The position numbers and the translations under genes were made by a program. Below, in pieces: positions 1,053 to 32,091 of a DNA stretch of 32,091 nucleotides. Below the pieces are notes generated by a model that was given only the letters and a program-made list of their open reading frames with translations, searched no databases and was not told the DNA's origin. Location of the stretch: positions 1 through 32,091 of the forward strand of contig JAGYLL010000008.1 of assembly GCA_018401135.1 (NCBI GenBank), written 5' to 3'. The stretch's first letter is position 1; each line of letters opens with the position of its first letter. The stretch comes from Candidatus Moraniibacteriota bacterium (GTDB lineage: Bacteria > Patescibacteriota > Minisyncoccia > Moranbacterales > GCA-2747515).

Positions 1053-2971
1053 ATGAAAAAAGAAACAATCTTTTCTGTTCTTGGGACTTTTCTTTATAAA
1101 AAAGAAATATATCTTTTGGTTCGTCAAAAAGATTCTAAAACACGATGTTCCCTTAAAAAACAAACTTCTAAAAATATCTTTGAAATTTTTCACAAAGATA
1201 TTCGAATTGCAAAAGGAGATAAAGGAGATGAATATGAAAATATTTCTTTTTGTAAAGAGTTTCGTTTTTCTGATATTTCTGAAAGAGGGAAAATCGTTTT
1301 TGTCTAACCTATCTTTCTTTGGAGTCGGGCATTTCAGAGCTTCGAATTGCCTTTTCAGAAGATATGGTTCATTGGCAACATATTACAACCCTTTCACACA
1401 TTCATTCGTCAGCATCTCTTATTTTTTTCGAAGAAAATGTAAAAGATCGATACGTTCTTTATCATGGAAAGGTAGCTTTGTCTGTTTCTTCTTCTCGTGA
1501 TTTGCGTTCTTTTACAACAAAAGGAGTTTCTTCTCTTCTCCCTGCTTTAAGTATGCGAAATACTCTTCGTATCGCAGGGATACAGTTGGTTTCTGATGGT
1601 ATTTTGGTTTTCTACTTTGCTTATAGTGAAACGATGGAATATATGGCAAAGAATTGCTCTATTTATGGAGTTCTTTTTGATCGCAAACATCCAGAAAGAA
1701 TGATATGGCAAAGTGATGATCCTTTATGGATGGTTCCTGCTGGAGAAGTTTCTTTACGAGAGCCTGTTTCTATCAATTTTATTGATGATACGCATATTAT
1801 TTCTTATTGGCGAGGAGGAGATAATGCTCTTTATGCCTTTAAACATTGGATAGGAGAAACAAGAGATAGTATAAAAAAAAGAAAAATAGCAAAAGAGAAT
1901 GTTTCCTTGGATAAAGCGGGTCCTCAAGTAAAAAGACATTTTGAAAATCCTATTCTTGAGCCAAAATCAGAACATTATTGGGAAACAAAGGCAGCCTTTA
2001 ATCCTACAGCTCTTTGTGATGACGATGGAAGGGTTCATATTGTGTACCGTGCTATTGGAGAGGGAGATGTATCTGTTTTGGGGTATGCTTTAAGCCGGGA
2101 TGGTTTTCGTATTGACGAAAGAGACACGAAGCCTATGTATGTCCCACGGACTATTCATGAGGGCCTTTCAGAGGATCGTCTATGTCAAAATCCACACACC
2201 TATTCTCCTTATGAGTCGGGTGGAGGTTGCTGGGGTGGATGTGAAGATCCTAAGCTTACACGTATAGAAGATACTGTTTATATGACGTACGTTGCTTATA
2301 ATGGATGGGCACCTCCTCGTGTAGCACTTACTTCTATTTCGATGAAAGATTTTTTAGAGAGAAATTGGGGAAAATGGACATATCCTGTTCTCATTTCTCC
2401 ACCGGGAAAGGTTGCAAAAAGTGCAGCAATTCTTCCAGAGAAGATAGGAGGAAAATATGTTGTTTTCTATAGAATATTTCCTGATGTACTTGTAGATTAT
2501 GTAGATTCTTTGGAGAATTTTGATGGAGAAAATGTTTTTTTACAAGATCTTTACCGTATTAAGCCCCGAGAAGGATTCTGGGATGCAGGAAAATTTTCTT
2601 TCGGTGCTTCTCCTATAAAAACAAAGGAAGGTTGGCTTGTTATTTACCATGCAGTAACAGGTCGACAAGAATGGGAGGGAAGTGATCTTCGCTACAAGAT
2701 AGGCGCAATGCTTCTGGATCTTGAAAATCCAGAAAAAGTCATTTGTAGAAGTTCCAAGCCTATTCTTGAACCAGATTTTGATTATGAAAATAATGGATGG
2801 AAAGCGGGTATTGTGTATCCGTGTGGGGCGGTTGTTCGTAATGGAGATCTTTTGGTGTACTATGGTGGTGCAGATACGGTGACTTGTGTGGCATCAGCAC
2901 CTCTTGATGAATTTTTGAAAACGCTTTTGGCAAGTGGAGATCCTGAATTGACAGAAGTTTTTGTGAAATAA
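1053..2971 (+). CDS. GH130-family protein (beta-mannosyl phosphorylase-like) with an extra N-terminal propeller-like region; one frameshift near 1300
   Basis: C-terminal half has GH130-like motifs: 'RHFENPILEPKSEHYWETKAAFNPTA', 'GGCEDPKLTRIEDTVYMTY', 'YYGGADTVTC'. ORF 1041-1307 (frame 0) appears to continue into ORF 1319-2971 through a one-base frame change at a T-run. Confidence 0.75.
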
Positions 2972-3012
2972 GTATATATTTTTAGAAAGAATTAAAATTT
3001 TTATTTTATCGT

Positions 3013-4938
3013 ATGCGAGTAAAACGTCATCCAAATAATCCTCTTTTAGGTCCTGATATTGATCATGAATGGGAATCTGAAGCAGTCTTTAATCCTTGTG
3101 TGGTGGAAAAAAAGGGAAAACGACATTTTTTTTATCGAGCACTTTCTTCGATGAAGCCTCATAATGGCGTAGAGATGCGTGTTTCAACTGTGGGTCATGT
3201 AGAGGGAATGCATGATTCTTGTTTGTCTGAAAGGGAAATGCTTATTGCTCCTGAAAAAGAATGGGATGCTTTTGGATGCGAAGATCCACGAGCGACCTAT
3301 CTTGATGGGAAGTATTATATTTTTTATACAGCACTTTCCAATTACCCTCATACACCTGAAGGGATAAAAATAGGACTTGCTGTTTCTCGAGATCTCAAAA
3401 AGTTTGACCGTCATCTCGTCACACCTTTTAATGCAAAGGCTATGGCGCTTTTTCCTGAAAAAATAGATGGAAAATTTGTTGCTGTTTTGAGTGTAGATAC
3501 AGATAGACCACCTTCTAAAATTGCTATTGCTGAGTTTGAAAAAGAAGAGGATATGTGGTCTCGAGAATATTGGGAAGATTGGTATTCTCATATAGATGAT
3601 CACCTTCTTGATTTACAAAGAAAATTTAGAGACCATATAGAAGTAGGAGCTTCTCCTGTAAAAACAGAAAAAGGATGGATTCTTATTCACTCCTATATTT
3701 ATGATTACAAAACAGGAAAACCAAATTTTACTATTGAAGGAGCTTTGCTTGACTTGAAAAATCCTCGTAAAATCTTGGGAAGGACACCTGTTCCTATGCT
3801 TTATCCCGAAAAAATGTATGAACTTAATGGGCAGGTTCCTCAAATAGTGTTTCCTTCAGGCGCTCTTATCGAAGAAGATATTTTACATATGTATTATGGA
3901 GCAGCGGATACTCGTTGCTGTGAAGCTTCTGTAAAAGTTTCAGAGCTTCTTGAACAATTACAACAACATCCTCCTCGTATAAAGTGTAAGCGTTTTGAGC
4001 AAAACCCCCTCATTTCTCCAATAAAAGAACATCCATGGGAGACAAAATATACGTTAAATCCTGGTGCGATACGATTAGAAGGTGCTACACATATTATTTA
4101 TAGAGCTATGGGAGATGACGACACTTCTGTTTTGGGATATGCAAAATCAAATGATAATCTCTCAATAGACGAACGACTTGTCGATCCCATTTATGTGCCA
4201 CGAAAGAATTTTGAAATAAAGAAAAAAGAAGGTTTCTCTGGTTGTGAAGATCCACGATTGACACTTTTGGATGATAGAATTTATATGTGTTACACAGCTT
4301 TTAATGCTCAAGACACAGCTGCGGTAGCTCTTACTTCTATTACCAAAGATGACTTTCTTTCTAAGCGTTGGTTTTGGGAAGATCCTAAACTTATTTCTCC
4401 ATTGGGAAGGTTTGATAAAAATGCCTGTCTTCTTTCAAAAAAAGTTCATAATAAGTATACATTCCTCCATCGATTAGATGATTGTATCTGGGCTGACTAT
4501 AGAGATTCACTGGAGATTTCTCAAGAAAAAAATCCTCTTGGAGGAGAAATTCTTTTAGATGTTCGTCCAGATCTTTGGGATAGTCTCAAGGTGGGCATTG
4601 CGGGACCACCTCATGCACTTAATGAAGAGGGAACGTTATGGCTTCTTCTTTATCACGGAGTCTCTAAATATGACAGTCAATATAGAATAGGAGCTTCGCT
4701 TATGGAAATGCTTCCTGGAGATGCTAATGTTACCCATCGCTTACCCTATGCTATTTTGGAGCCAGAAGAAGAATATGAGCATACTGGATACAGACCAGGA
4801 ACGGTGTTTGTATGTGGTTCTGTAGAAGATAAGGGGAAACTTTACCTCTACTATGGAGCGTCTGATCAGTATTGTGCTGGAGCCTTTATATCTTTAAAAA
4901 AATTAGTTGAAGAGCTTAAAAAATTTCCCGTAAAATAA
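3013..4938 (+). CDS. Tandem (two-domain) GH130-family glycoside phosphorylase/hydrolase
   Basis: 641 aa with two GH130-like units: 'RHPNNPLLGPDIDHEWESEAVFNP...FGCEDPRATYLDGKYYIFYTA...YYGAADTRC' and 'RFEQNPLISPIKEHPWETKYTLNP...SGCEDPRLTLLDDRIYMCYTAF...YYGASDQYC'. Confidence 0.85.
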   Translation: MRVKRHPNNPLLGPDIDHEWESEAVFNPCVVEKKGKRHFFYRALSSMKPHNGVEMRVSTVGHVEGMHDSCLSEREMLIAPEKEWDAFGCEDPRATYLDGKYYIFYTALSNYPHTPEGIKIGLAVSRDLKKFDRHLVTPFNAKAMALFPEKIDGKFVAVLSVDTDRPPSKIAIAEFEKEEDMWSREYWEDWYSHIDDHLLDLQRKFRDHIEVGASPVKTEKGWILIHSYIYDYKTGKPNFTIEGALLDLKNPRKILGRTPVPMLYPEKMYELNGQVPQIVFPSGALIEEDILHMYYGAADTRCCEASVKVSELLEQLQQHPPRIKCKRFEQNPLISPIKEHPWETKYTLNPGAIRLEGATHIIYRAMGDDDTSVLGYAKSNDNLSIDERLVDPIYVPRKNFEIKKKEGFSGCEDPRLTLLDDRIYMCYTAFNAQDTAAVALTSITKDDFLSKRWFWEDPKLISPLGRFDKNACLLSKKVHNKYTFLHRLDDCIWADYRDSLEISQEKNPLGGEILLDVRPDLWDSLKVGIAGPPHALNEEGTLWLLLYHGVSKYDSQYRIGASLMEMLPGDANVTHRLPYAILEPEEEYEHTGYRPGTVFVCGSVEDKGKLYLYYGASDQYCAGAFISLKKLVEELKKFPVK

Positions 4939-5235
4939 AAAGGTATGCTTCGATACTTCTTTGCTCGAAGTTTTTTTCTCGGACTCTTTCTCCTTGTAGG
5001 ATTTTTTATGTTCCCTGATGGAGTTGATGCAGAGTGGTCTACAACTTTAAAATGTTGTAAACCGGGGAACCCAACTGATTGTAGTCAAGAGTATACAGTA
5101 AGTGGGACTACTCAAGCTACTTGTGAAACATCTGTTGATAACAAAAAAGAAGCTCTTGCGATTCTTAGATTTACACAGTGCCAAGGCGGTGTATGTAGTG
5201 AAAAACCAGTTTCAGGAAGCGCTGCATGCGGATCG

Positions 5236-6226
5236 GCCAATGGAAAAAGTTTTGCTCAAGCGCCAATGGAAGATCTTTGTGATCCAGGAACTCCACAGCC
5301 AGCGATTCCTACGAAAAGTCTTGATGGAAAAACATGGAATTGGTTATGTAAGACAGAGATGAGGGAAATTCTCCTCCATGTTCAGCTATGGTCAAAACAG
5401 ATTCCTCCAGGATCCAAGTTCAGATGAATTTTGCTCTCAGGACTTGTTCCTTGTGGAAGGCAATGCGACAATCCTGATACTGATATAGATGAGACACAGA
5501 TGTAATCTCTGTCATCTTATAGTAGGGATGGATATGATTATCGATTATCTCCTTCTTCTTCTAGGATTTGCTGCTTCTTTTTTATGCTTGCACAAGCTGC
5601 AGGGATTATGTGTATCTGTAGAGCTGGGAATCAAAAAATATTATTTCTTCAGGTGCTTATATGGGCGGGTCTTGCAGGATTTACTTTTCATTGTTCTTAT
5701 CGCTTGGGTAGTAAAGTTATACTGCTATCGTGTATCTTTTCCTATTGATGAAACAAATCCTATTGGGCTTAAAGTAAATGGTTGGTCAGATTTTACTTGT
5801 GGATCTATCGAGCTGGAGGGGAGATCCAGATCCAAAAGATCCAGATCCAAAAAGATCCAAAACCAGATCCTACCAAAGATACTATCTTTGTTTGCACAAG
5901 AAACCTATCTGATAAAAAAGAAGATGAAGAAAAAAAAGTGAAAATCGAAGTAAAAAGAATACTTGCAACCACTCCAACAGAAAAAGAAGTAATAGTTTCA
6001 AAGTAGAACGTGCTGATGGAACAGCAAAAGCAAGGAGAGGACTATATTGCCATGTCAGGATCATTGACGTGGAAAAAGATGAAACTTCTTCAAAATATAT
6101 CGAAATAGCCAAGCATGAAAGATGATGAAATAGAAGGAGAGGAGACCTTCAGATAGAGCCACTCCCTCTCCAGGTATTGAGATCGTGATAAAGAATAACT
6201 CGGTGATGGTTACTATAGAGGATGCT
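5236..6226 (+). repeat. Direct repeat copy 1 (~0.99 kb), shared module of the two surface genes
   Basis: By eye, near-identical to 8886-9878, from 'gccaatggaaaaagttttgctcaagcgcc' to 'actatagaggatgct'; differences are mostly 1-5 nt indels. Confidence 0.9.
5510..5800 (+). other. T4SS-pilin-like double-TM module (copy 1)
   Basis: Frame-switched reading CNLCHLIVGMD.IIDYLLLLLGFAASF...AGIM...FIVLIAWVV; resembles the CPR T4SS_pilin family (CxLCH...IDxLL...VxxGxMYxxSAG...IVxxAWxVVN). Confidence 0.6.
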
Positions 6227-6244
6227 TCATCTCTTCCAGTAAAA

Positions 6245-7970
6245 GCACACTTCTCAGCTTCTCCTAATCTCTGGCTCTATTCCTTTGGGAGAGAGTAGTT
6301 GTTCATCAACTATTTCTTGGTCTGAGGACTCTTTACAAAGGTGAGACGAAGCTTCAGATGCTCCTTCAGGAACTCAGGAGATCTAACTCTCAGGAGAAAC
6401 CCCTTTCTTGCTCTAAGTAAAATCTTCTGATGAAATAATTCTTAGAACGCTCTATTGCAGGTCGATGTTTCTGGGTATCTGGCAAGGAAATATTTGTTCA
6501 ACAGAGGGGCTGACCTGTTCAAATTATTGCTTCCTCCTGGATCCTTGTTCCACCTTTGGGACAAAGTACCTGCTCACTAACTATTTCCTGGTCTGGAGGT
6601 GGTATGCTCTATAAAGATGATCAAAAACTCAGAAGATCTTCTGGAAATCAATCTATTCAACTTTCAGGTAAAACTTCTTCATTTCAGATAAAATCTCCTG
6701 ATGGTGCGATGCTAAAGTCTCTTTCTATTTTGGGGCAATGTTCTTCTGGGAAGTTGGGATGGCCTAAATGTGTGACGGGGTGGAGGTGGAAGCGCCTACA
6801 CTTTCAGCCTCTTCTAATCCTTGCACCCACAGCAGAAGGAAAAAGAATTGTTCAACAACTATTACTTGGTCTTCCTGTTGGCTATGAGCTTATTCTTGCA
6901 AATACTGGTCAGGTTTTATCTGGAAATAATAGTGGGATCTCTTGGATGTTAATTGGATAAAACTGGAAATAAATTTATTTTCCAAGTAAGAAATAAGGAA
7001 AGTAAAGCTATAAAAGAATGGATCTCTGTTTCAGGGAAATGTGCTTCCAGGGAAGTTGGGATGAAAATGTTCGATCAGTGGAGGGAAGTGGTAATAGCAC
7101 CCTTTCGATTACGCCTAACCCTTGCATTATTAAATCGAGAGTCTTCCCCGGTACAGTTAATATCTCGTGGAATTATCCCCGGCCAGGCAATTCTTGTAGT
7201 TTTAGGTCCGCCAATGGCAGATTTACATTAAAAGCTCTAAGGATAACTGGTGAAGCTTTAGTCATACAATCAGTCCAAATGATGAATATTAAGTGCAAAG
7301 GCTCTCTGAGCGGTATGGATGTATGATAGGTCAATGTATGGGGAGAGAAATAGAAAAGCAAGATTTCCAAAGCCATTTGCTCTTCAGGAGAGTGGGATAA
7401 AAGAAAGGAAGAATGTGTAGGTGGTGGAGGAAGTGCTGCGCCTTCAGCCTCCCTAATCCTTGTACTATTTCTTTGGGCAGTGATGCGCTCTTCATCCATT
7501 TCCTTGGTCTGGGGGATGCCTTTATGAGGAGGAACGCGTATTGAGGAACTTCTGGGAAACTTGGGACTGTTCAAGTTTCTGGAAGAGGATCTCGTTTCAG
7601 GTAAAAATTCTCAAGGAAAATGTGTGTTAAAACTCTTTCTGTTTCAGGCGATGTTCTTCAGGGAAATTGGAGACCAAAATGTAAGTGCAACTACTGATGT
7701 CAAACTTTCAGCTTCTTCCCCAATCCTTGTCTTATTTCCATAGGACAGCAGTTGTTCCTCCACAATCTCTGGTCTGGAGGAACTCTATAAAGACGGGTCT
7801 TCCGCTGGGGCTCTCTCAGGTAGTCAGTCTTTTCAAATTTCCTGAAAAGGATCTTCTGTTTCAGGTGAGGTCTTCCGATGGGAAGGCTTTATGATCTATT
7901 TCAGTGCTGGGAAGGTATTTCAGGGAAGTTGGGATGGTGCAAAATGTGTAGCTGATGGAGGAGCTTGTGA
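6245..7970 (+). repeat. About six degenerate tandem repeats (~260-340 bp) encoding cysteine-containing Ig-like units
   Basis: Recurring DNA 'cttctaatccttg', 'ctattt/cttggtctgg' and 'tcttc(t/a)gggaagttgggatgg...aaatgtgt', with starts near 6262, 6535, 6812, 7112, 7450 and 7710. Confidence 0.65.
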
Positions 7971-8353
7971 TTGGTGGCGCTATGATAAGAAAATATGCAA
8001 AGAAGGTCCAAATATGTATTGTGGGTGAAGGCTGTGGGAGATCTCTGTGCGTGTGAAATGTCTTAGAACTGCTTGTAGATGTTCCGGCACACAATGCTGG
8101 AAAGCTCCTGATGAATGCTAGAAACGCACATGTTTCTTACTTCGATCAAATCAAAGAAAAAGTTTGTTTTTTTAGGAAGTTGGTACGGTTCAAATGCTGC
8201 AGATGGAAAAAGATCATCTTGCATTGGCGAGTCATACTGAAACAATGGGTTCCTTGTAGCGTTACTGATTGTATTTATTCTTGTTTTAACAAACATTACA
8301 GTTGTAATAGTGTCTCATTAGAAAGGTGTCAATATTGATAAATCTTTATAGAT

Positions 8354-8690
8354 ATGAAAAAAAGAAACATTTTTTATTTTACTCATTCTTTCCTTCTAGT
8401 TTTTATTGGAATATCCTCTTTTTCTTTTCTTTGAGAAAGGTGGAAAATCAAGAAGAGATGCAAATATCTTCCAAAAACTTCTTTCAGGGCTATTGTTGAT
8501 ATGGAGACAGGAGAGGAAAATCTTCTCTCAAGGGGCCATTCTTACTGTTAGATCCAGATACTCAAGTGAACCACTGCCTTGTGAGTCCAAATGGTTTTAT
8601 TGAAAATCTTCAGAAGAAGAGATGAAAATGGAATAAATATTTTGGATCAGCTATCGACCTGAAGAAGTTTATGAACAGGAGAGGGGCAAT
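8354..8690 (+). pseudogene. Short putative signal-peptide-bearing protein between the two large surface genes, frame disrupted
   Basis: ATG at 8354: MKKRNIFYFTHSFLLVFIGISSFSFL then stop; other frames continue with EKVENQEEMQISSKNF... and DPDTQVNHCLVSPNGFIENLQKK. Confidence 0.3.
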
Positions 8691-8885
8691 ATCTCAAGTT
8701 GAAAGAATGAGGAAAAAGATAATAAATAAAAAGAATCTTAGTTTTTCTTGATAAAAGTATGAACATTCTTTGTACCAAGCATTTCTCGGGAAAAAAATAT
8801 TTTTCCTTTTCTTAGCACTCCCCTTTTCTTTTTTCTAAGCACTCCTTTTTCTTCCCTGTATGCAGAAACTGGAGTATGTGGCCCA

Positions 8886-9878
8886 GCCAATGGAAAAAGT
8901 TTTGCTCAAGCGCCAATGGAAGATCTTTGTGATCCAGGAACTCCACAGCCAGCGATTCCCGATGAAAAGTCTTGATGGAAAAATAATACGGAATTGGTTA
9001 TGTAAGACATGAGGGAACCTCCATGTTCAGCTATGGTCAAAACAGATTCCTTCCAGATCCAAGTTCAGGGATGAATTTGCTCCTCAGGACTTGTTCCTTG
9101 TGGAAGGCAATGTGACAATCCTGATACTGATATAGATGAGACATACAGATGTGTAATCTCTGTCATCTTATAGTAGGGATGATACATTATCGATTATCTC
9201 CTTCTTCTTCAGATTTGTTGCTTCTTCTTATGCTTGTCGTTGCATGGATTATGTATCTTGTGAGTGCTGAATCAAAAATATTATTTCTTCAGCAAAAAAA
9301 AGCTATATGTATGGGTCTTGCAGGATTTACTATTGTTCTTATCGCTTGGGTAGTAGTTAATTAATTTCGTTATCGTGTATCTTTTCCTATTGATGAACAA
9401 ACCGCCATTGAAGCTTGTAGTAAATGGTTGGCTGGGACTTTTACTTGCATCCATCGGGGAGCTGGAGGGGGAGATCCAGATCCAAAAGATCCAGATCCAA
9501 AAGATCCAAAACCAGATCCTACTAAAGATACTATTTTGTTTGGTAATAAGAAACCTATTCGATAAAAAGAAGATGAAGAAAAAGTGAAAATCGAAGTAAA
9601 AAGAATACTTGCAAAACTACCCAACAGAAAAAGAAGTAATAGTTTCAAAGTAGAACGGTTGATGGAACAGCAAAGCAAGGAGAGGACTATATTGCTATGT
9701 CAGGACTTTCATTGACGTGGAAAAAGATGAAACTTCTTTTCAAAATATATCGGAAATAGCTATTACGAAAGATGATGAAATAGAAGGAGAGGAGACCTTT
9801 CAGATAGAGCTAACTCCCTCTCCAGGTATTGAGATCGTGATAAAGAATAACCCGGTGACGGTTACTATAGAGGATGCT
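8886..9878 (+). repeat. Direct repeat copy 2 (~0.99 kb), shared module of the two surface genes
   Basis: Matches 5236-6226 along its length; homology ends abruptly after 'gaggatgct' ('tcatctcttcc' in copy 1, 'gtagaaaaaacg' in copy 2). Confidence 0.9.
9149..9364 (+). other. T4SS-pilin-like double-TM module (copy 2)
   Basis: ORF 9149-9364: MCNLCHLIVG...LLLLLMLVVAWIMYLVSA...GLAGFTIVLIAWVVVN. Confidence 0.65.
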
Positions 9879-10691
9879 GTAGAAAAAACGTGTGAGTTTA
9901 TGTATGGAAATGAAAACGCTTCCAAAATTTATGTTTTTGCACCACTTAACGATACAAGTGGGGAATATCTTGGTTGGGAAGAAAGTGATATCGAAGAGTA
10001 TAAAATAGAAGTTTCTCCAACATCAGGCGTGGTTACTTTTATTGACGACTACGGATCTTTCGCAAGTCAGTTTGCTGTATATAGATCTTCTGAAATTGTA
10101 GAGATTTCAGCGACAGGACTGGACACAAAAACAGACGTGAGTTGTCCAAAAGGAATAGTGGGAAATATTTATATTGTTAATGATTATACTGCAGATCCAG
10201 GAAATTTGGGTGGATATGCGTATAAAAACTCACTGAAAGTTGTGATTACTCGAGGTGCGTCGAAAAAAGTAGTTGCTCATGAAACAGGACATTCGTATAT
10301 AGGACTTGATGATGAGTATGAGAATTCAGAAACGTACCAAAAATTTCTTGCGAGTAGGGGTATATGTACAGAATCTATTAATTGTCGTACGACTGAGGCG
10401 GAATGTAAACAAGACTTTGGTGTGAGATCTTGTTATTTGGGTTGTAAATATGCACCTCATTCAGGTCCTAATGCAGAATTCTATCGAGAAACATTTAATA
10501 GTATTATGAATTGGCATGAAACGGGAGTTTTTGCACCATATCAGATGGAAGCTTTGGAGTATAAGATTAGAACAGGTAGAATTATGCTAGGGAAAGTTTT
10601 GAGTAGTCCAAATTGCCCAAGGTAGTATTGACAAAATATAATAAATATGCTTATGTATACATACCGTCATTTTTTTTTGGAGTCCTTTACC

Positions 10692-11387
10692 ATGTCAAAG
10701 TCAAAGTATATTTTTGTTCTCGTAGCTATTTTTTCTTTCAACACCCCTTTTGTCCACGGACAACAAGAAATGAAAGAAGGGCAACTATCATCGTTAAGCT
10801 ATAATTTGACGGTGGAGAGAACTGGCGATGTGATCAAACTTTTGGAGGGTGGGTATGTCATAGAATGGACGTATGAATTTTTCAAGAATCTCACACCTGA
10901 ATTGAAGGGAAGAAATAATGCCGTTATTCTTTCTTTTCAAGGAGAGTCACTTGCATATTTTGCGGTTTCCGATATGGAGGCTATTCTTTGTAGAGATTCT
11001 CCAGAAGAGGGAAGGATGACTGGGGGGTGTGAATTTCAAGGAACGGATGGCCAATACCCTTTTAGCGCTCCCTATTTCCCGAATGCTCAATTTATAGATG
11101 TCTATAATGAGAAAGGGGAAAAAATGGGAAGACTCGATGTTTCTCCTTTTGCTCTTTGTAATCAAAATGGACTTTGTGAGATGGGAGAGGGAGTATCAAC
11201 CTGTCCCAGTGACTGCAAAAAGGAGGAGGTTTTTTATCAAGATGCCTTGACGATTCATCAGGAAGAAGAGAATAAGGAAAATAAACTTCTCCTTTGGATT
11301 ATAGGGTGTGTAGGCATCTTTTTTCTTGCTACTTTTGTTATTGTGATACTAAAAATTATACGCAACAAACAAAAGTATGGCATATAA
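10692..11387 (+). CDS. Secreted or membrane-anchored protein with CNxNGxCExGEG...CPSDC motif and C-terminal TM helix
   Basis: Signal peptide MSKSKYIFVLVAIFSFNTPFVHG; 'CNQNGLCEMGEGVSTCPSDC'; C-terminal 'LLLWIIGCVGIFFLATFVIVILKII' plus basic tail. Start chosen at internal ATG 10692 of ORF 10647-11387. Confidence 0.6.
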   Translation: MSKSKYIFVLVAIFSFNTPFVHGQQEMKEGQLSSLSYNLTVERTGDVIKLLEGGYVIEWTYEFFKNLTPELKGRNNAVILSFQGESLAYFAVSDMEAILCRDSPEEGRMTGGCEFQGTDGQYPFSAPYFPNAQFIDVYNEKGEKMGRLDVSPFALCNQNGLCEMGEGVSTCPSDCKKEEVFYQDALTIHQEEENKENKLLLWIIGCVGIFFLATFVIVILKIIRNKQKYGI

Positions 11388-11582: not shown

Positions 11583-12776
11583 ATGGCATATCAAACAAAG
11601 CATCGATCAGCTTCTGGTCGAGCGTCATTTGGCGCAAAACGTTCTTTTCGTGGATCTCGTGGACGCGGACCAAGAAAAGAAAATATACATCCTTCAAAAT
11701 TTATAAAACCAGCATGTATTCTGACACAAGAGACGTACCAAGCACAGCACGCTTTTTGTGATTTTCGAGTGCATAGTATTTTGGAGAAAAATATTATTGA
11801 AAGAGGATTTGATTTTCCTTCACCAATTCAAGATCAAACAATTCCTTTGGCAATGAAAGGAAAAGATATTATAGGTATTGCAAATACAGGAACAGGAAAA
11901 ACCCTTGCTTTTGCAATTCCTGTTTTGCATCAACTTCTTATGGATCGAAGATCTCATGCATTAGTTGTTGCTCCTACACAGAAAATTAGCACAGCAGATT
12001 CTTGAAGAACTACAATCCCTTGCAAAAGAGGGAAAATCCCATGGGCTCTTCTTATAGGAGGAACCCCTAGCGACCACAATTCAGAGATCTTTCCCATTTT
12101 CCAAGAATTGTTGTGGGAACACCGGGAAGAATAAAAGATCATCTTGAAAGAAAGACTCTTCGTCTAACGCTTTCAATGCTGTAGTTTTAGATGAAGTAGA
12201 TCGTATGTTGGATATGGGATTTATCGATGATAAGGAGAGGAATTCTCTCTAATCTTTCTTTTCAACGTCAATCATTTTCTTCTCAGCGACTATGAATGAT
12301 AAGGTGAGAACCTAATACGAGAATTTTCCAATGAACCGATAACGGTTTCTGTAAGTACAGGAAATACCAGTGATAATGTAGAACAAAATATTGTAAAATA
12401 TCGTCTTCTCGAGAAGATAAAGTAGAAAAACTTCATTCATTTCTTGTAGAAAAAGAGATGAAAAATATTGATTTTTGATGAAACGAAACGAGGTGTTGAT
12501 GTTTTGAGGTAAAGAACTTTCAAAGAGGATTTGCTGTAGAGGAACACATGGAAATAAAACACAAGGACAACGACAGCGTGTGCTTTCGAGTTTCGATCTG
12601 GGCAGATAAAAATACTTGTAGCCACAGATGTTGCTGCTCGAGGAATTGATGTTGCAGATATTACCTATGTTATAAATTATTCAACTCCACAGAGTTATTC
12701 TGATTATATTCATCGAATAGGACGCGCGGGGAGAGCAGGAAAAATGGGATACGCTCTTACGTTTATCGAAGGATAA
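11583..12776 (+). pseudogene. DEAD-box RNA helicase, frame broken by several indels after ~11975
   Basis: Intact 11583-11975 ([36 protein letters not shown]); later pieces '[17 protein letters not shown]', 'FFSATMND', '[54 protein letters not shown]' in other frames. Confidence 0.85.
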
Positions 12777-12811
12777 TTTTCGTTGACGAGAAAGAAAAAT
12801 GCTATTACAAT

Positions 12812-12847
12812 AAAGAAAATGTCGAGGATTTCGACTTTTCTTTTTTA
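12812..12847 (+). terminator. Terminator hairpin after the helicase
   Basis: aaagaaaatgtcga / tcgacttttcttt stem (one bulge) followed by T-run. Confidence 0.6.
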
Positions 12848-12883
12848 AAAATATATAAATAAAATATTTTTATACAAGTTTTT

Positions 12884-14670
12884 ATGGAAATACGAAATAT
12901 TGCTATTATTGCACACGTAGATCATGGGAAGACGACGCTCACGGATGCTATTATGGTCAAACAGGGACTATCGTTGATGATAGTACTATGGATTCGAATG
13001 CTCTCGAAAAAGAGCGAGGAATAACTATTTATGCCAAGAATACCTCAGTTATTTACCGAGATACAAAGATAAATATTGTCGATACTCCTGGACATGCTGA
13101 TTTTGGAAGTGAGGTAGAGCGAGTTCTTCGTTCTATTGATTCTGTTGTTTTGGTGGTAGATGCACAAGAAGGTCCTATGCCTCAAACGAGATTTGTTTTG
13201 AAGAAGTCTCTCGAATTAGGACACAAGCCTCTTGTTGTTATCAACAAAATTGATAAGCCAGCTGCTCAACCAGATATTGTTAAAGAACAAGTTTTTGAAT
13301 TATTCCTTGATCTTGGTGCAACTGATGAACAATTGGAATTTACCACTATCTATGCCATAGCAAGAGAGGGCGTTGCAAAAGAAAAAATAGACGATACTTC
13401 AAAAGATCTTTCACCACTTCTTGATACTATTCTTTTGCGCGTAGAACCCGCTTCGAGCGAAAGAGAAAAACCTTTGCGATTCCAGCCTTTCAATCTTGGA
13501 TATGATGATTTTCTTGGACGACTTGCTATTGGAAGAATTTATGAAGGAACTATTCAGTCAGGAAAAACATTTACACTCAAAAAATTAGATGGAAGCGTTG
13601 AGATGGGTCGTGTTTCGAAACTCTTTACGTTTCATGGAACGGAGAGAAAAGAAGTGGAAGAAGCAATTGCCGGTGATATTGCTATGGTTGCAGGATTTTC
13701 TTCTATAGATATTGGAGAAACGCTCTGCCAATCAAATGATCAAGAGGCACTTTCAGCTATTACTGTAGATGAACCGACAATATCATTGCGTTTTCTCGTT
13801 AATGATTCACCTTTTGCTGGTCGTGAAGGAAAATTTGTAACGAATCAACAGATTCGTGAACGGCTCAAAAAGGAATTGGAAGTAAATGTTGGTTTAAAAA
13901 TTGATTTTACCTCTTCAGAATACGCTATGGTTTATGGTAGAGGAGAGCTTCATATAGCTGTTCTTTTGGAGAATATGCGACGTGAAGGTTATGAAATGCA
14001 AGTTTCACAACCACATGTTATTATCAAACAAGAGGAGGGACGAAAGGTTGAGCCATTTGAGGAAGTAACTATTGATGTCCCTACTCTTGTGTCGGGATCT
14101 GTTATTGAGAGACTTGGAAAGCGAAAAGGTATTATGGTAGATATGCAGACGCATGGAGATCAAACACGTATGATATTTGAGATTCCCACAAGAGGACTTC
14201 TTGGCTATAGAGGACAATTTATCGTGGATACAAAAGGAGAAGGAATTCTATGTTCTCGAGTGATTGGATTCCGTGATTATGTAGGAGTCATTGCCAAGCG
14301 AGATGTTGGATCTATGGTTTCTGGACTAACAGGAAAAGCGCTTGGCTATTCTCTGGCTAATTTACAAGAACGAGGAGTTTTATATGTCGGTGCAAGTACA
14401 GATGTATACGAAGGACAAGTAATTGGAAATACTTCTAAAGGAGAAGATATGACCGTAAATCCTATTAAAGGAAAACAACTTACCAATATGCGAGCAAGTG
14501 GAACGGACGATGCTATTATACTTACACCTCCATGGGAACTTTCTATCGAACGTGGTTTGGAAATAATGTCTGATGATGAGTATTTGGAAGTTACACCAAA
14601 AAGCGTTCGTCTTCGAAAGCAACAACTTACAGAAAATGATAGAGTGAAAGCAAAAAGAAAGCAGAAATAG
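12884..14670 (+). CDS. typA: GTP-binding translation factor TypA/BipA, frameshifted near 12950-12975
   Basis: [24 protein letters not shown] in frame 2, then '[48 protein letters not shown]...' in frame 1 to 14670. Confidence 0.92.
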
Positions 14671-15648: not shown

Positions 15649-16053
15649 ATGGCAATAATATGGAAAGAAGAATATAGCTTGGGAATTGAAGGTATCGATA
15701 ATCAGCATAAAAAGTTTATCGCTATTCTCAGTTCTTTATCAAAAGCTCTTTCAGAGAGGAGAGAAAAGGATATTATTGCTGATATTCTTCTAGATTTACA
15801 AGAATATGCGGAAATGCATCTTGCTTTTGAAGAAAAATACTTTGAAAAGTTTCATTATGAGAATGAAGAAGAGCATAACAAAGAACACCGGTATTATCGT
15901 TGGAAAATACAAGAATTTATAGATCGTCACAAAGCAGAAGATCAACTTTTGTCTATAGAAATGTTACATTTTTTGGAAGACTGGTTGGAAGAGCATATTA
16001 TGAAATCAGATAAAAAATATGTAGAATGTTTTCGTAGAAATGGAATCAAATAG
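15649..16053 (+). CDS. Bacteriohemerythrin-like protein
   Basis: 'WKEEYSLGIEGIDNQHKKFIAIL', 'HLAFEEKYFEKFHYENEEEHNKEH', 'DWLEEHIMKSDKKY' match the hemerythrin iron-ligand pattern. Confidence 0.88.
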   Translation: MAIIWKEEYSLGIEGIDNQHKKFIAILSSLSKALSERREKDIIADILLDLQEYAEMHLAFEEKYFEKFHYENEEEHNKEHRYYRWKIQEFIDRHKAEDQLLSIEMLHFLEDWLEEHIMKSDKKYVECFRRNGIK

Positions 16054-16123
16054 GTTTTTTTGAAAGAGTTTTCAAGAGATTATTTCTAAAAATTTTTCTA
16101 TTCTTCAAAAAGTAGAAAAATTT

Positions 16124-16155
16124 AAAAGAACATTATCTTTAGATAATGTTCTTTT
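16124..16155. terminator. Bidirectional terminator between convergent hemerythrin and dnaB
   Basis: aaaagaacattatct-tt-agataatgttctttt, perfect 15-bp arms. Confidence 0.65.
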
Positions 16156-16279
16156 AGTTTAATTTTACAAAAAGAAAATAATAAAATTTTGTCTTTCATA
16201 AAACGTACCAATTTCCTTTATTTTTAAAAATTTTTTTCAATAAAAATATCTAGAGATTTACGTCTTAATGTAAAAATTT

Positions 16280-17638
16280 TTACTCTGACCGAGTTTTTTC
16301 TAGAGAACGGAAAGTTGTGGAGGCTTCGTCGAAGTAGAGCTGTACGCGTCCAAGAGGTCCGTTTCTATGCTTGGCTATAATAACTTCTACAATATTTTTA
16401 TTGGGAGTATCTGGTTTGTAGCGATCTTCTCTGTAGAGAAAGAGGACAACGTCAGCGTCTTGCTCTATAGAACCTGACTCTCGAAGGTCAGAGAGTTTGG
16501 GAACCTGGTCGGTGCGAGACTCTACGGCTCGAGAAAGCTGAGAGAGCGCGATGATAGGAATATTAAGCTCTTTGGCAAGGTTTTTGAGTCCTCGAGAGAT
16601 TTCTGAAATTTCTTGAACACGGTTTTCTGTTCGTCTTCCTTCCATAAGCTGGAGATAGTCGATGATAATAAGTCCCAAATGATGCTCGGCTTGAAGTCTT
16701 CTTGCCATCGTACGAAGTTGCATAATATTAGCAGAAGCAGAATCATCTATAAAAATAGGAGCTTCACTCAAAATACCCATAGCGGTATTGATACGTTCGA
16801 AATCATCCGAGCCATCACCACTTTTAAGTTTTCCTGTTCGTAATTTCCACAGATCGATTCCTCCTTGAGCAGCGATCATACGATCAACCAACTGATCGGA
16901 GGACATTTCGAGAGAAAATATCCCCACAGGAACTTTCATTTTTGTTCCAATATTTCTGGCAATATCAAGAGCAAAGGTCGTCTTTCCTATAGAAGGACGT
17001 GCTGCGAGAATGACGAGGTCAGATTTCTGAAATCCTGCAAGTATATTATCAAGATCTCCATAGCAAGAGGGAACACCACGCATATCACTTCCTGCATTGT
17101 GAAGTTCATCGATACGGTTAAAAGCTTCTTCGAGAACGGATTTGATAGGAATGAAATCTTTTTTGGTATGTTTTTGAGAAATAGAAAAAAGTTTTTGCTC
17201 AGCTCTGTCGAGGGTAAGTTGCACATCTTGAGATTCTTCAAAACCAAGTTCCGATATTTCATTGGCCACAGAGATAAGACGTCGTAGAATGGCCTTTTTT
17301 TGGACAACGCCTGCATAGTGAGCGACATTGGAAGCGGAAGGAACACCTCCTACGAGAGATGCGAGATAGCTTGTTCCTCCAATTGTTTCAAGTTTATCTC
17401 GTTCTTCGAGTTTATTGGAAAGACTTAAGAGGTCTATAGGCTCTCGATCTTCATAGAGGTCGAGCATTACTTGATAAATATCATTGTGTTTATCATTGTA
17501 GAAATCGCCAACTTGGACCATATCAGCAACACGAATGATGGCATCTTTGTCGAGCATAAGAGCCCCGAGAACGCTTTGTTCAGCATCGGTATTGTGAGGA
17601 GGAACACGAAGTTCTTTGGAAGCTTTGGTTCGAGCCAT
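16280..17638 (-). CDS. dnaB: Replicative DNA helicase
   Basis: 'PPHNTDAEQSVLGALMLDKDAI', 'LVILAARPSIGKTTFALDIA', 'LIIIDYLQLMEG', 'LSQLSRAVESRTDQVPKLSDLRESGSIEQDADVVLFLYR'. Confidence 0.95.
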   Translation of the reverse strand: MARTKASKELRVPPHNTDAEQSVLGALMLDKDAIIRVADMVQVGDFYNDKHNDIYQVMLDLYEDREPIDLLSLSNKLEERDKLETIGGTSYLASLVGGVPSASNVAHYAGVVQKKAILRRLISVANEISELGFEESQDVQLTLDRAEQKLFSISQKHTKKDFIPIKSVLEEAFNRIDELHNAGSDMRGVPSCYGDLDNILAGFQKSDLVILAARPSIGKTTFALDIARNIGTKMKVPVGIFSLEMSSDQLVDRMIAAQGGIDLWKLRTGKLKSGDGSDDFERINTAMGILSEAPIFIDDSASANIMQLRTMARRLQAEHHLGLIIIDYLQLMEGRRTENRVQEISEISRGLKNLAKELNIPIIALSQLSRAVESRTDQVPKLSDLRESGSIEQDADVVLFLYREDRYKPDTPNKNIVEVIIAKHRNGPLGRVQLYFDEASTTFRSLEKTRSE

Positions 17639-31693: not shown

Positions 31694-31731
31694 AAAAATA
31701 AAAACAATCTTTAAAGATTGTTTTTATTTTT
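31694..31731. terminator. Terminator after ftsZ
   Basis: aaaaataaaaacaatcttt|aaagattgtttttattttt, perfect inverted repeat followed by T-run. Confidence 0.75.
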
Positions 31732-31733
31732 TT

Positions 31734-31813
31734 CTCTGTCTTTTCGACTGACGAGTCCTCGAGGAGTGGAGAAATCTCTCTGAATCTCCTTTCTTTTCCC
31801 CGCGTAGATGGGG
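31734..31813. repeat. Intergenic repeat unit, copy A
   Basis: 30-nt exact match 'ctctgtcttttcgactgacgagtcctcgag' with 31951-31980; similarity continues through 'tggagaaa' and 'ccccgcgtag..gggg'. Confidence 0.8.
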
Positions 31814-31950
31814 ATCTAGTCCGAATCCCTCCCCCTGAGAAAAAGGGGGATTGAGGGGGATTTTCTTCGTTTGAAATTCTAAAGAAAAATCAAGAAAATC
31901 CCTCCCCCTCGAAGACTCGGGTACTCCCTTTTGGCAAAGGGAGAGAATCC

Positions 31951-32030
31951 CTCTGTCTTTTCGACTGACGAGTCCTCGAGAAATGGAGAAAACTCTCCGA
32001 GTTTTCCTCTTCTTCCCCGCGTAGGCGGGG
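31951..32030. repeat. Intergenic repeat unit, copy B
   Basis: Same 30-nt block, then hairpins GAAAACTC-TCC-GAGTTTTC and CCCCGC-gtag-GCGGGG. Confidence 0.8.
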
Positions 32031-32091
32031 AACCAGTCTTAGCTTTTTCCTCACGTAGATGGAACCACTCCCTCTTCCTCCACCTTGGGAA

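Follow-up and report, generated by a model that had tools for sequence, protein, structure and literature searches.

A pilin-like anchor scaffold shared by neighbouring genes for predicted surface proteins in Moranbacteria

Contig JAGYLL010000008.1 of a Candidatus Moraniibacteriota bacterium (assembly GCA_018401135.1), analyzed over its whole length of 32,091 nucleotides and hereafter called the window, carries two neighbouring genes for putative surface proteins, genes A and C, that share a scaffold of about 1 kb (table 1). Self-blastn of the window aligned the two scaffold copies over 1037 columns at 87.3% identity (E = 0), and the homology spans both copies entirely (991 bp for copy 1 and 993 bp for copy 2). 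Each encodes, in order, a CGxANGK module, a pilin-like module with two transmembrane (TM) segments, a PDPK linker, and a Calx-beta domain. The coordinates, lengths, and module order proposed by an earlier interpretation of this DNA, the sequence-only reading, were reproduced exactly by self-blastn, alignment, and translation. Its Calx-beta call was upheld by PF03160, which scores 52.6 bits on the read-through translation (cut-off 27). No other repeat of this size was found in the 820-kb genome, in which the scaffold has just two full copies; the sole additional match to the block covers 34 bp of the PDPK linker. On the 3′ side, the homology stops abruptly right after GAGGATGCT (IEDA), at the end of Calx-beta. 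Beyond this point, copy 1 leads into a repeat array and copy 2 into a metallopeptidase. Alignment and translation thus confirmed the sharp edge and differing flanks noted earlier: the DNA flanking the copies differs on either side, with distinct signal peptides and distinct C-terminal domains, which we call cargos. Gene C opens with its own signal peptide (..STPFSSLYAETGVCGPANGK), and gene A with a start at 4945, a signal peptide, and a Cys-rich domain.

Table 1. Features of the scaffold locus in the window.
Feature	Coordinates	Strand	Basis
Gene A, clean 5′ part: signal peptide, Cys-rich N-terminal domain, start of CGSANGK module	4945..5365	+	Open reading frame 4945-5427, sense lost at ~5365
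Scaffold copy 1 (CGxANGK module, pilin-like two-TM module, PDPK linker, Calx-beta)	5236..6226	+	Self-blastn, alignment, three-frame translation; frame broken past ~5365
Gene A cargo: ~6 copies of a ~90-amino-acid repeat (SPNPCTISLG..SWSGGTLYKDG..SGKCSSGSWDGAKC)	6270..7970	+	tblastn of the unit
Gene A Cys-rich tail, frame broken	7970..8330	+	Three-frame translation
Small-gene remnant (MKKRNIFYFTHSF...), frame broken	8350..8740	+	Three-frame translation
Gene C signal peptide (..FFLSTPFSSLYAETGVCGP), unlike that of gene A	8802..8885	+	Three-frame translation
Scaffold copy 2	8886..9878	+	Self-blastn, alignment, three-frame translation; frame broken up to ~9720
Gene C cargo: M64-like zinc metallopeptidase, HETGHSYIGLDDEY at 10278-10319	9879..10625	+	Intact open reading frame 9717-10625; alignment with G043, G126, G117; PDB profile matches
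Partner gene: secreted, single C-terminal TM segment, uncharacterised	10647..11387	+	tblastn matches beside the metallopeptidase in G117, G043, G126
Low-quality consensus patch 1, indel-rich, no long frame	5365..9720	.	Frames; gap/mismatch ratio versus clean repeats
Low-quality consensus patch 2, breaking the C-terminus of a DEAD-box helicase and the N-terminus of BipA	11990..12985	.	Three-frame translation; BipA intact in relatives

The repeat is real, but no open reading frame (ORF) runs through either copy. The close DNA-level match described earlier masks differences dominated by indels: global alignment of the copies yields 906 matches, 38 mismatches, and 55 gap openings, mostly of 1–2 bases. 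Three-frame translation shows the coding sense hopping between frames from ~5365 to ~9720, a stretch taking in copy 1 and the repeat array behind it, the small gene, and copy 2 for the most part; the locus is clean solely outside these limits. UvrD-like and ABC-permease-like genes are likewise frame-broken elsewhere in the genome. We compared repeats over ~474 kb of the genome. Within-contig repeats in ORF-poor stretches show mismatch:gap counts of 24:22 (contig C4), 14:8 (C12), and 17:7 (C6), versus 13:0, 16:0, and 13:0 for three repeats elsewhere in the genome and 59 mismatches for 3 gaps in the scaffold pairs of relatives described below. Pooled gap:mismatch counts are 92:93 in the four ORF-poor pairs, including that of the window, and 3:101 in the others (Fisher p = 5e-19); the counts are partly non-independent and the pairs were chosen by eye from lists, but the direction is clear. 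We therefore read the ORF-poor stretches as assembly gaps bridged by low-accuracy sequence. RNA genes were ruled out as their cause, as Rfam yields tRNAs only.

As the differences between the copies are mostly consensus errors, the 87% carries no information on age, and taking it for evolutionary divergence was rejected since indels dominate. Reading frames within the patches are unusable for the same reason, and the true identity of the copies probably exceeds 96%, the gap-free value of the alignment. The identity, age, and frames of the window repeat should not be taken literally. Given frames broken throughout both copies, one might consider them decaying pseudogenes whose breaks are real mutations. 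This is the least credible of the explanations weighed here: indels exceed substitutions, unlike in neutral decay, the breaks end abruptly, and the metallopeptidase and the N-terminal part of gene A are intact. Furthermore, the unrelated housekeeping genes for BipA, the DEAD helicase, and the UvrD-like protein show the same kind of breaks, which led us to reject decay. Among the other patches, the C4 repeat (15979-16461 and 16761-17236, 90% identical) holds a PilX-like sequence (KKASILAFTLIMLSILLLAGLSLMGSV...). At window positions 31694-32038 lies a dispersed intergenic repeat of ~120 bp with a 38-bp perfect inverted repeat and two direct copies. It recurs at the ends of contigs C3, C6, and C15 and is probably one cause of contig breaks.

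A single real scaffold copy could also account for the locus if a noisy bridging read had been joined to contig ends with their overlap unrecognized. The whole region is indeed of low quality, and other within-contig repeats also lie in patches (C4 15979-17236, C12 11107-12444). However, both copies are flanked by different sequence, including the signal peptides and cargos. In addition, patch 1 begins ~130 bp within copy 1 and stops ~160 bp short of the end of copy 2, and noise so placed would be the expected trace of a short-read assembly halted at a true repeat. The same arrangement moreover exists with clean frames in four relatives. We consider this artefact unlikely.

The finding would be weak if it were confined to the error-ridden window, and relatives with clean frames therefore serve as an independent test. 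Among the module matches listed, at least four genomes of relatives (designated by G numbers) carry adjacent scaffold pairs. In G130, the scaffolds are 100% identical over 421 bp and precede an M15-like and an SLT cargo; in G126, they are 88.4% identical over 344 bp, with zero gaps, and precede an M64-like and an M15-like cargo. The pairs of G011 (384 bp, 100% identical) and G013 (513 bp, 95.5%) have diverged cargos, which in G013 are probably related. All four pairs have intact frames, their identity ends at the scaffold/cargo junction on the 3′ side, and the cargos are clearly unrelated in two of them. A common scaffold with other C-terminal domains was thus found in relatives, and the outcome that would have counted against it, no sharing at all, did not occur. 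Near-identical neighbouring scaffolds make recent duplication or gene conversion, as the sequence-only reading had suggested, the natural cause; dating it from the 87% is what had to be abandoned, as consensus errors dominate that value.

In the scaffold tree, pairs are sisters or identical, and scaffolds group by genome rather than by cargo. The AU (approximately unbiased) test rejected the grouping of M64-bearing scaffolds as one clade and likewise that of SLT- and M15-bearing ones; its p-values, from a short alignment and one model, are not to be taken at face value, and the direction is independent of them. The two scaffolds of G126 are 96% identical in amino acids, whereas those of its M64 relatives are just 33–44% identical to them. 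The tree and these identities argue that anchors have been copied between neighbours, or cargos exchanged, faster than species diverge. As an evolutionary pattern predicted from sequence, a shared display scaffold with exchanged cargo is therefore supported. An old duplication held by strong purifying selection, with no recent copying, would agree with the conservation of the module throughout the order. It appears highly improbable given the 100% DNA identity over 384–421 bp in relatives, which extends to synonymous sites, as compared with mostly only 30–45% amino acid identity between scaffolds of separate genomes.

The anchor itself is widespread. The TM part of the window read-through has homologues in 52 of the 54 genomes searched, and a profile of the module matched 128 of the 131 genomes of the order (Moranbacteria). 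Named records holding it belong to Candidatus Moranbacteria / Moraniibacteriota and other Patescibacteria. The window read-through is 42% identical to the module of G005 (E 7.5e-28). Alignment of 11 homologues revealed invariant PC, CxxC, Y, S, G, AK, G, W, and C positions and the consensus VPCG..CxxCH..YIvSAGN..AK..W..WxxFxC, with two TM segments. Ten of the 11 modules of relatives match the T4SS_pilin family (T4SS, type IV secretion system) PF18895 at E < 0.1, the top one at 28 bits for a cut-off of 26.6. The qualification of the window module as T4SS-pilin-like is supported by homology to these modules, the read-through itself not passing PF18895.

Judged by eye, about half of the ~130 strongest module places lie in open frames of at least 250 amino acids. 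Stand-alone modules stop 0–10 amino acids past the module, whereas fused ones run on for ~150–680. The cargos recognized by Pfam are SLT (G130, G084, and G089), SLT_3 (G094), a BD-FAE esterase (G005), FN3 (G088), and InlB-type repeats (G048). M64-like cargos are found on the module in G043, G117, and G126, and M15-like ones, assigned by the motif SH..G..vD...HWDv, in G130, G019, G047, and others. Cys-rich domains also occur. At two further loci, L138 (2342-3007) and L140 (1480-2124), we observed a pilin-like anchor with a cargo resembling a CHAP/NlpC amidase (..NCGSSCRWAW....YPHAFMI..), without a Pfam match. At locus L158, two stand-alone T4SS pilins in tandem (7079-7402 and 7584-7906) are identical in their TM core but begin with different N-termini. 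Being cargo-less, they were ruled out as a scaffold/cargo pair.

The cargo of gene C is a predicted metallopeptidase, as the sequence-only reading had it. It contains the HExxHxxxxLxDE zinc site of peptidase family M64 (HETGHSYIGLDDEY). In the four aligned cargos, HE.GH....L.DEY is invariant among a total of 20 invariant columns, and the family profile matches the metallopeptidase chains PDB 3p1v and 4df9 at about 1e-6. The window sequence alone scores 16 bits against PF09471 (Peptidase_M64), below the gathering score of 26, and the cargo of G117 matches at 3e-5 with 23.7 bits, also below it. An AlphaFold model made without alignment was unusable (mean pLDDT, the predicted local distance difference test score, of 32). 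The downstream partner gene adjoins the metallopeptidase in G117, G043, and G126 as well (tblastn E values of 6e-24, 8e-21, and 2e-10, respectively), which indicates a conserved two-gene unit. Its protein accompanies this peptidase in at least four genomes (the window genome and those of loci L137, L150, and L136). Conversely, the repeat unit of gene A was found in its own genome only (0 of 36 relatives among the 37 genomes searched). As this unit, repeated about six times, matches no Pfam family, the earlier description of these repeats as Ig-like could not be maintained. In these genomes, the CGxANGK module recurs as a common component of surface proteins. Upstream, at window positions 1319-4938, two tandem proteins of 550 and 641 amino acids belong to GH130 (beta-1,4-mannooligosaccharide phosphorylase type); the second shows two matched stretches suggestive of a doubled domain.

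In our view, A and C are probably both real genes, adjacent members of a surface-protein family built on a common anchor that was recently copied between them and is devoted to envelope-active display. By analogy with VirB2-like pilins, removal of the signal peptide would leave a short lysine-containing loop inside the cell and both ends of the anchor outside, so that the C-terminal cargo would be displayed outside. In the window genome, the CGxANGK module and Calx-beta would have joined the shared block. Behind it, gene A bears a repeat array specific to its lineage, and gene C the M64-like metallopeptidase, which is accompanied by the partner gene. The anchor may have been copied from gene to gene by local duplication or gene conversion. 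These proteins might act as membrane- or pilus-anchored, VirB1-like openers of the cell's own or a host envelope, with binding domains in addition. Such an envelope role seems the most likely one, because the cargos of relatives are often peptidoglycan-active (a Pfam assignment for SLT, a motif-based one for M15-like) and the genes encoding them are often part of, or next to, arrays of T4SS pilins. PrgI is encoded on another contig (C9) of the window genome; a T4SS is therefore likely present, though not at the scaffold locus.

Several observations weigh against this interpretation. The window read-through gives no match to PF18895. In many relatives, the module occurs cargo-free, with C-terminal tails of 0–10 amino acids. 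The M15-like cargo has no sequence match in Pfam or PDB, and its label therefore depends solely on the H..H..D..H motif. No pilin array adjoins the window locus, which sits between the GH130 genes and those for the DEAD helicase and BipA. The presence of both copies on one molecule derives from the assembly and not from reads, and the enzyme activity of the cargos and the T4SS association of the family are predictions. The sequence-only reading is upheld in part, as to both what it observed and how it interpreted it. The durable result, as far as sequences go, is a recurrent family of pilin-anchored fusions with copied anchors.

The sequence-only reading went further and envisaged a possible surface-cassette switch, in which recombination between the direct repeats could delete or swap cargo; in its active form, this would occur within a population. 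Direct repeats of ~1 kb spaced by 3.65 kb would permit homologous deletion, yielding an in-frame hybrid of gene A and the metallopeptidase, and the same geometry exists in G130 (421 bp, 100%) and G011 (384 bp, 100%). Nevertheless, we saw no isoform or silent-copy array, only two scaffold copies being present in the genome, and no dedicated recombinase was recognized by eye among the window ORFs. Deletion would irreversibly remove the gene A cargo, and both genes can coexist stably without switching. We consider active switching very unlikely. A broader view, which we regard as doubtful, holds that the pilin-like anchor is an exchangeable chassis. The anchors of neighbours would be kept identical by gene conversion, while recombination at the anchor would add, remove, or exchange envelope-active cargos. 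Such a chassis would supply a VirB1-type enzyme and allow lineages to retool attack or attachment to new hosts.

In Neisseria pilE/pilS and Borrelia vlsE, surface antigens vary through homologous recombination between paralogous surface genes, by gene conversion. There, the variable part is exchanged and silent copies form an array, whereas here it is the constant part that two genes, both of expressed appearance, have in common, and we found no silent array. Compared with peptidase family M64, the cargo of gene C shares the HExxH..L.DEY motif, conserved Cys residues, and the 3p1v/4df9 profile match; it differs by its fusion to the scaffold and by the sub-cut-off Pfam score of the window sequence alone.

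Like the T4SS or VirB2-like pilins of Patescibacteria (PF18895), the module has a two-TM pilin-like core and a signal peptide, and many module genes of relatives adjoin arrays of such pilins. Unlike them, it serves as the anchor of a longer protein whose C-terminal domain would lie outside, and neighbouring genes share near-identical DNA. Pilins of Patescibacteria arrays are on average 25% and at most 54% identical in amino acids according to the part of PMC12102498 that was consulted, in which we met no description of cargo fusions. The L158 pilins are more alike than this maximum, as given in that part of the paper. A T4SS and its pilins are essential for the epibiotic growth of one cultivated Saccharibacterium, the only Patescibacterium tested (PMC10633639).

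The VirB1-like hydrolases of Gram-positive T4SSs (TraG, PrgK, and Orf14) are membrane-anchored, with extracellular SLT or CHAP domains (PMC12857230). The SLT cargos anchored in G130, G084, G089, and G094 resemble them, the differences being the pilin-like anchor and a broader range of cargos. Genes A and C of the window carry a repeat array and an M64-like peptidase, respectively, rather than SLT, CHAP, or LytM domains, and SLT occurs in relatives only; for the window proteins, we infer VirB1-like functioning by analogy. Most Patescibacteria with VirB2-like pilins have no recognized VirB1 wall hydrolase, as stated in the same portion of PMC12102498. Pilin-like modules fused to SLT, M15-like, and M64-like domains are, from their predicted domains, candidates for this missing VirB1 activity and for attack of the host envelope. 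The sharing of anchors between neighbours offers a simple route for such proteins to diversify. If anchors do serve as an exchangeable chassis, they would supply the VirB1-type enzyme that most Patescibacteria T4SSs appear to be without.

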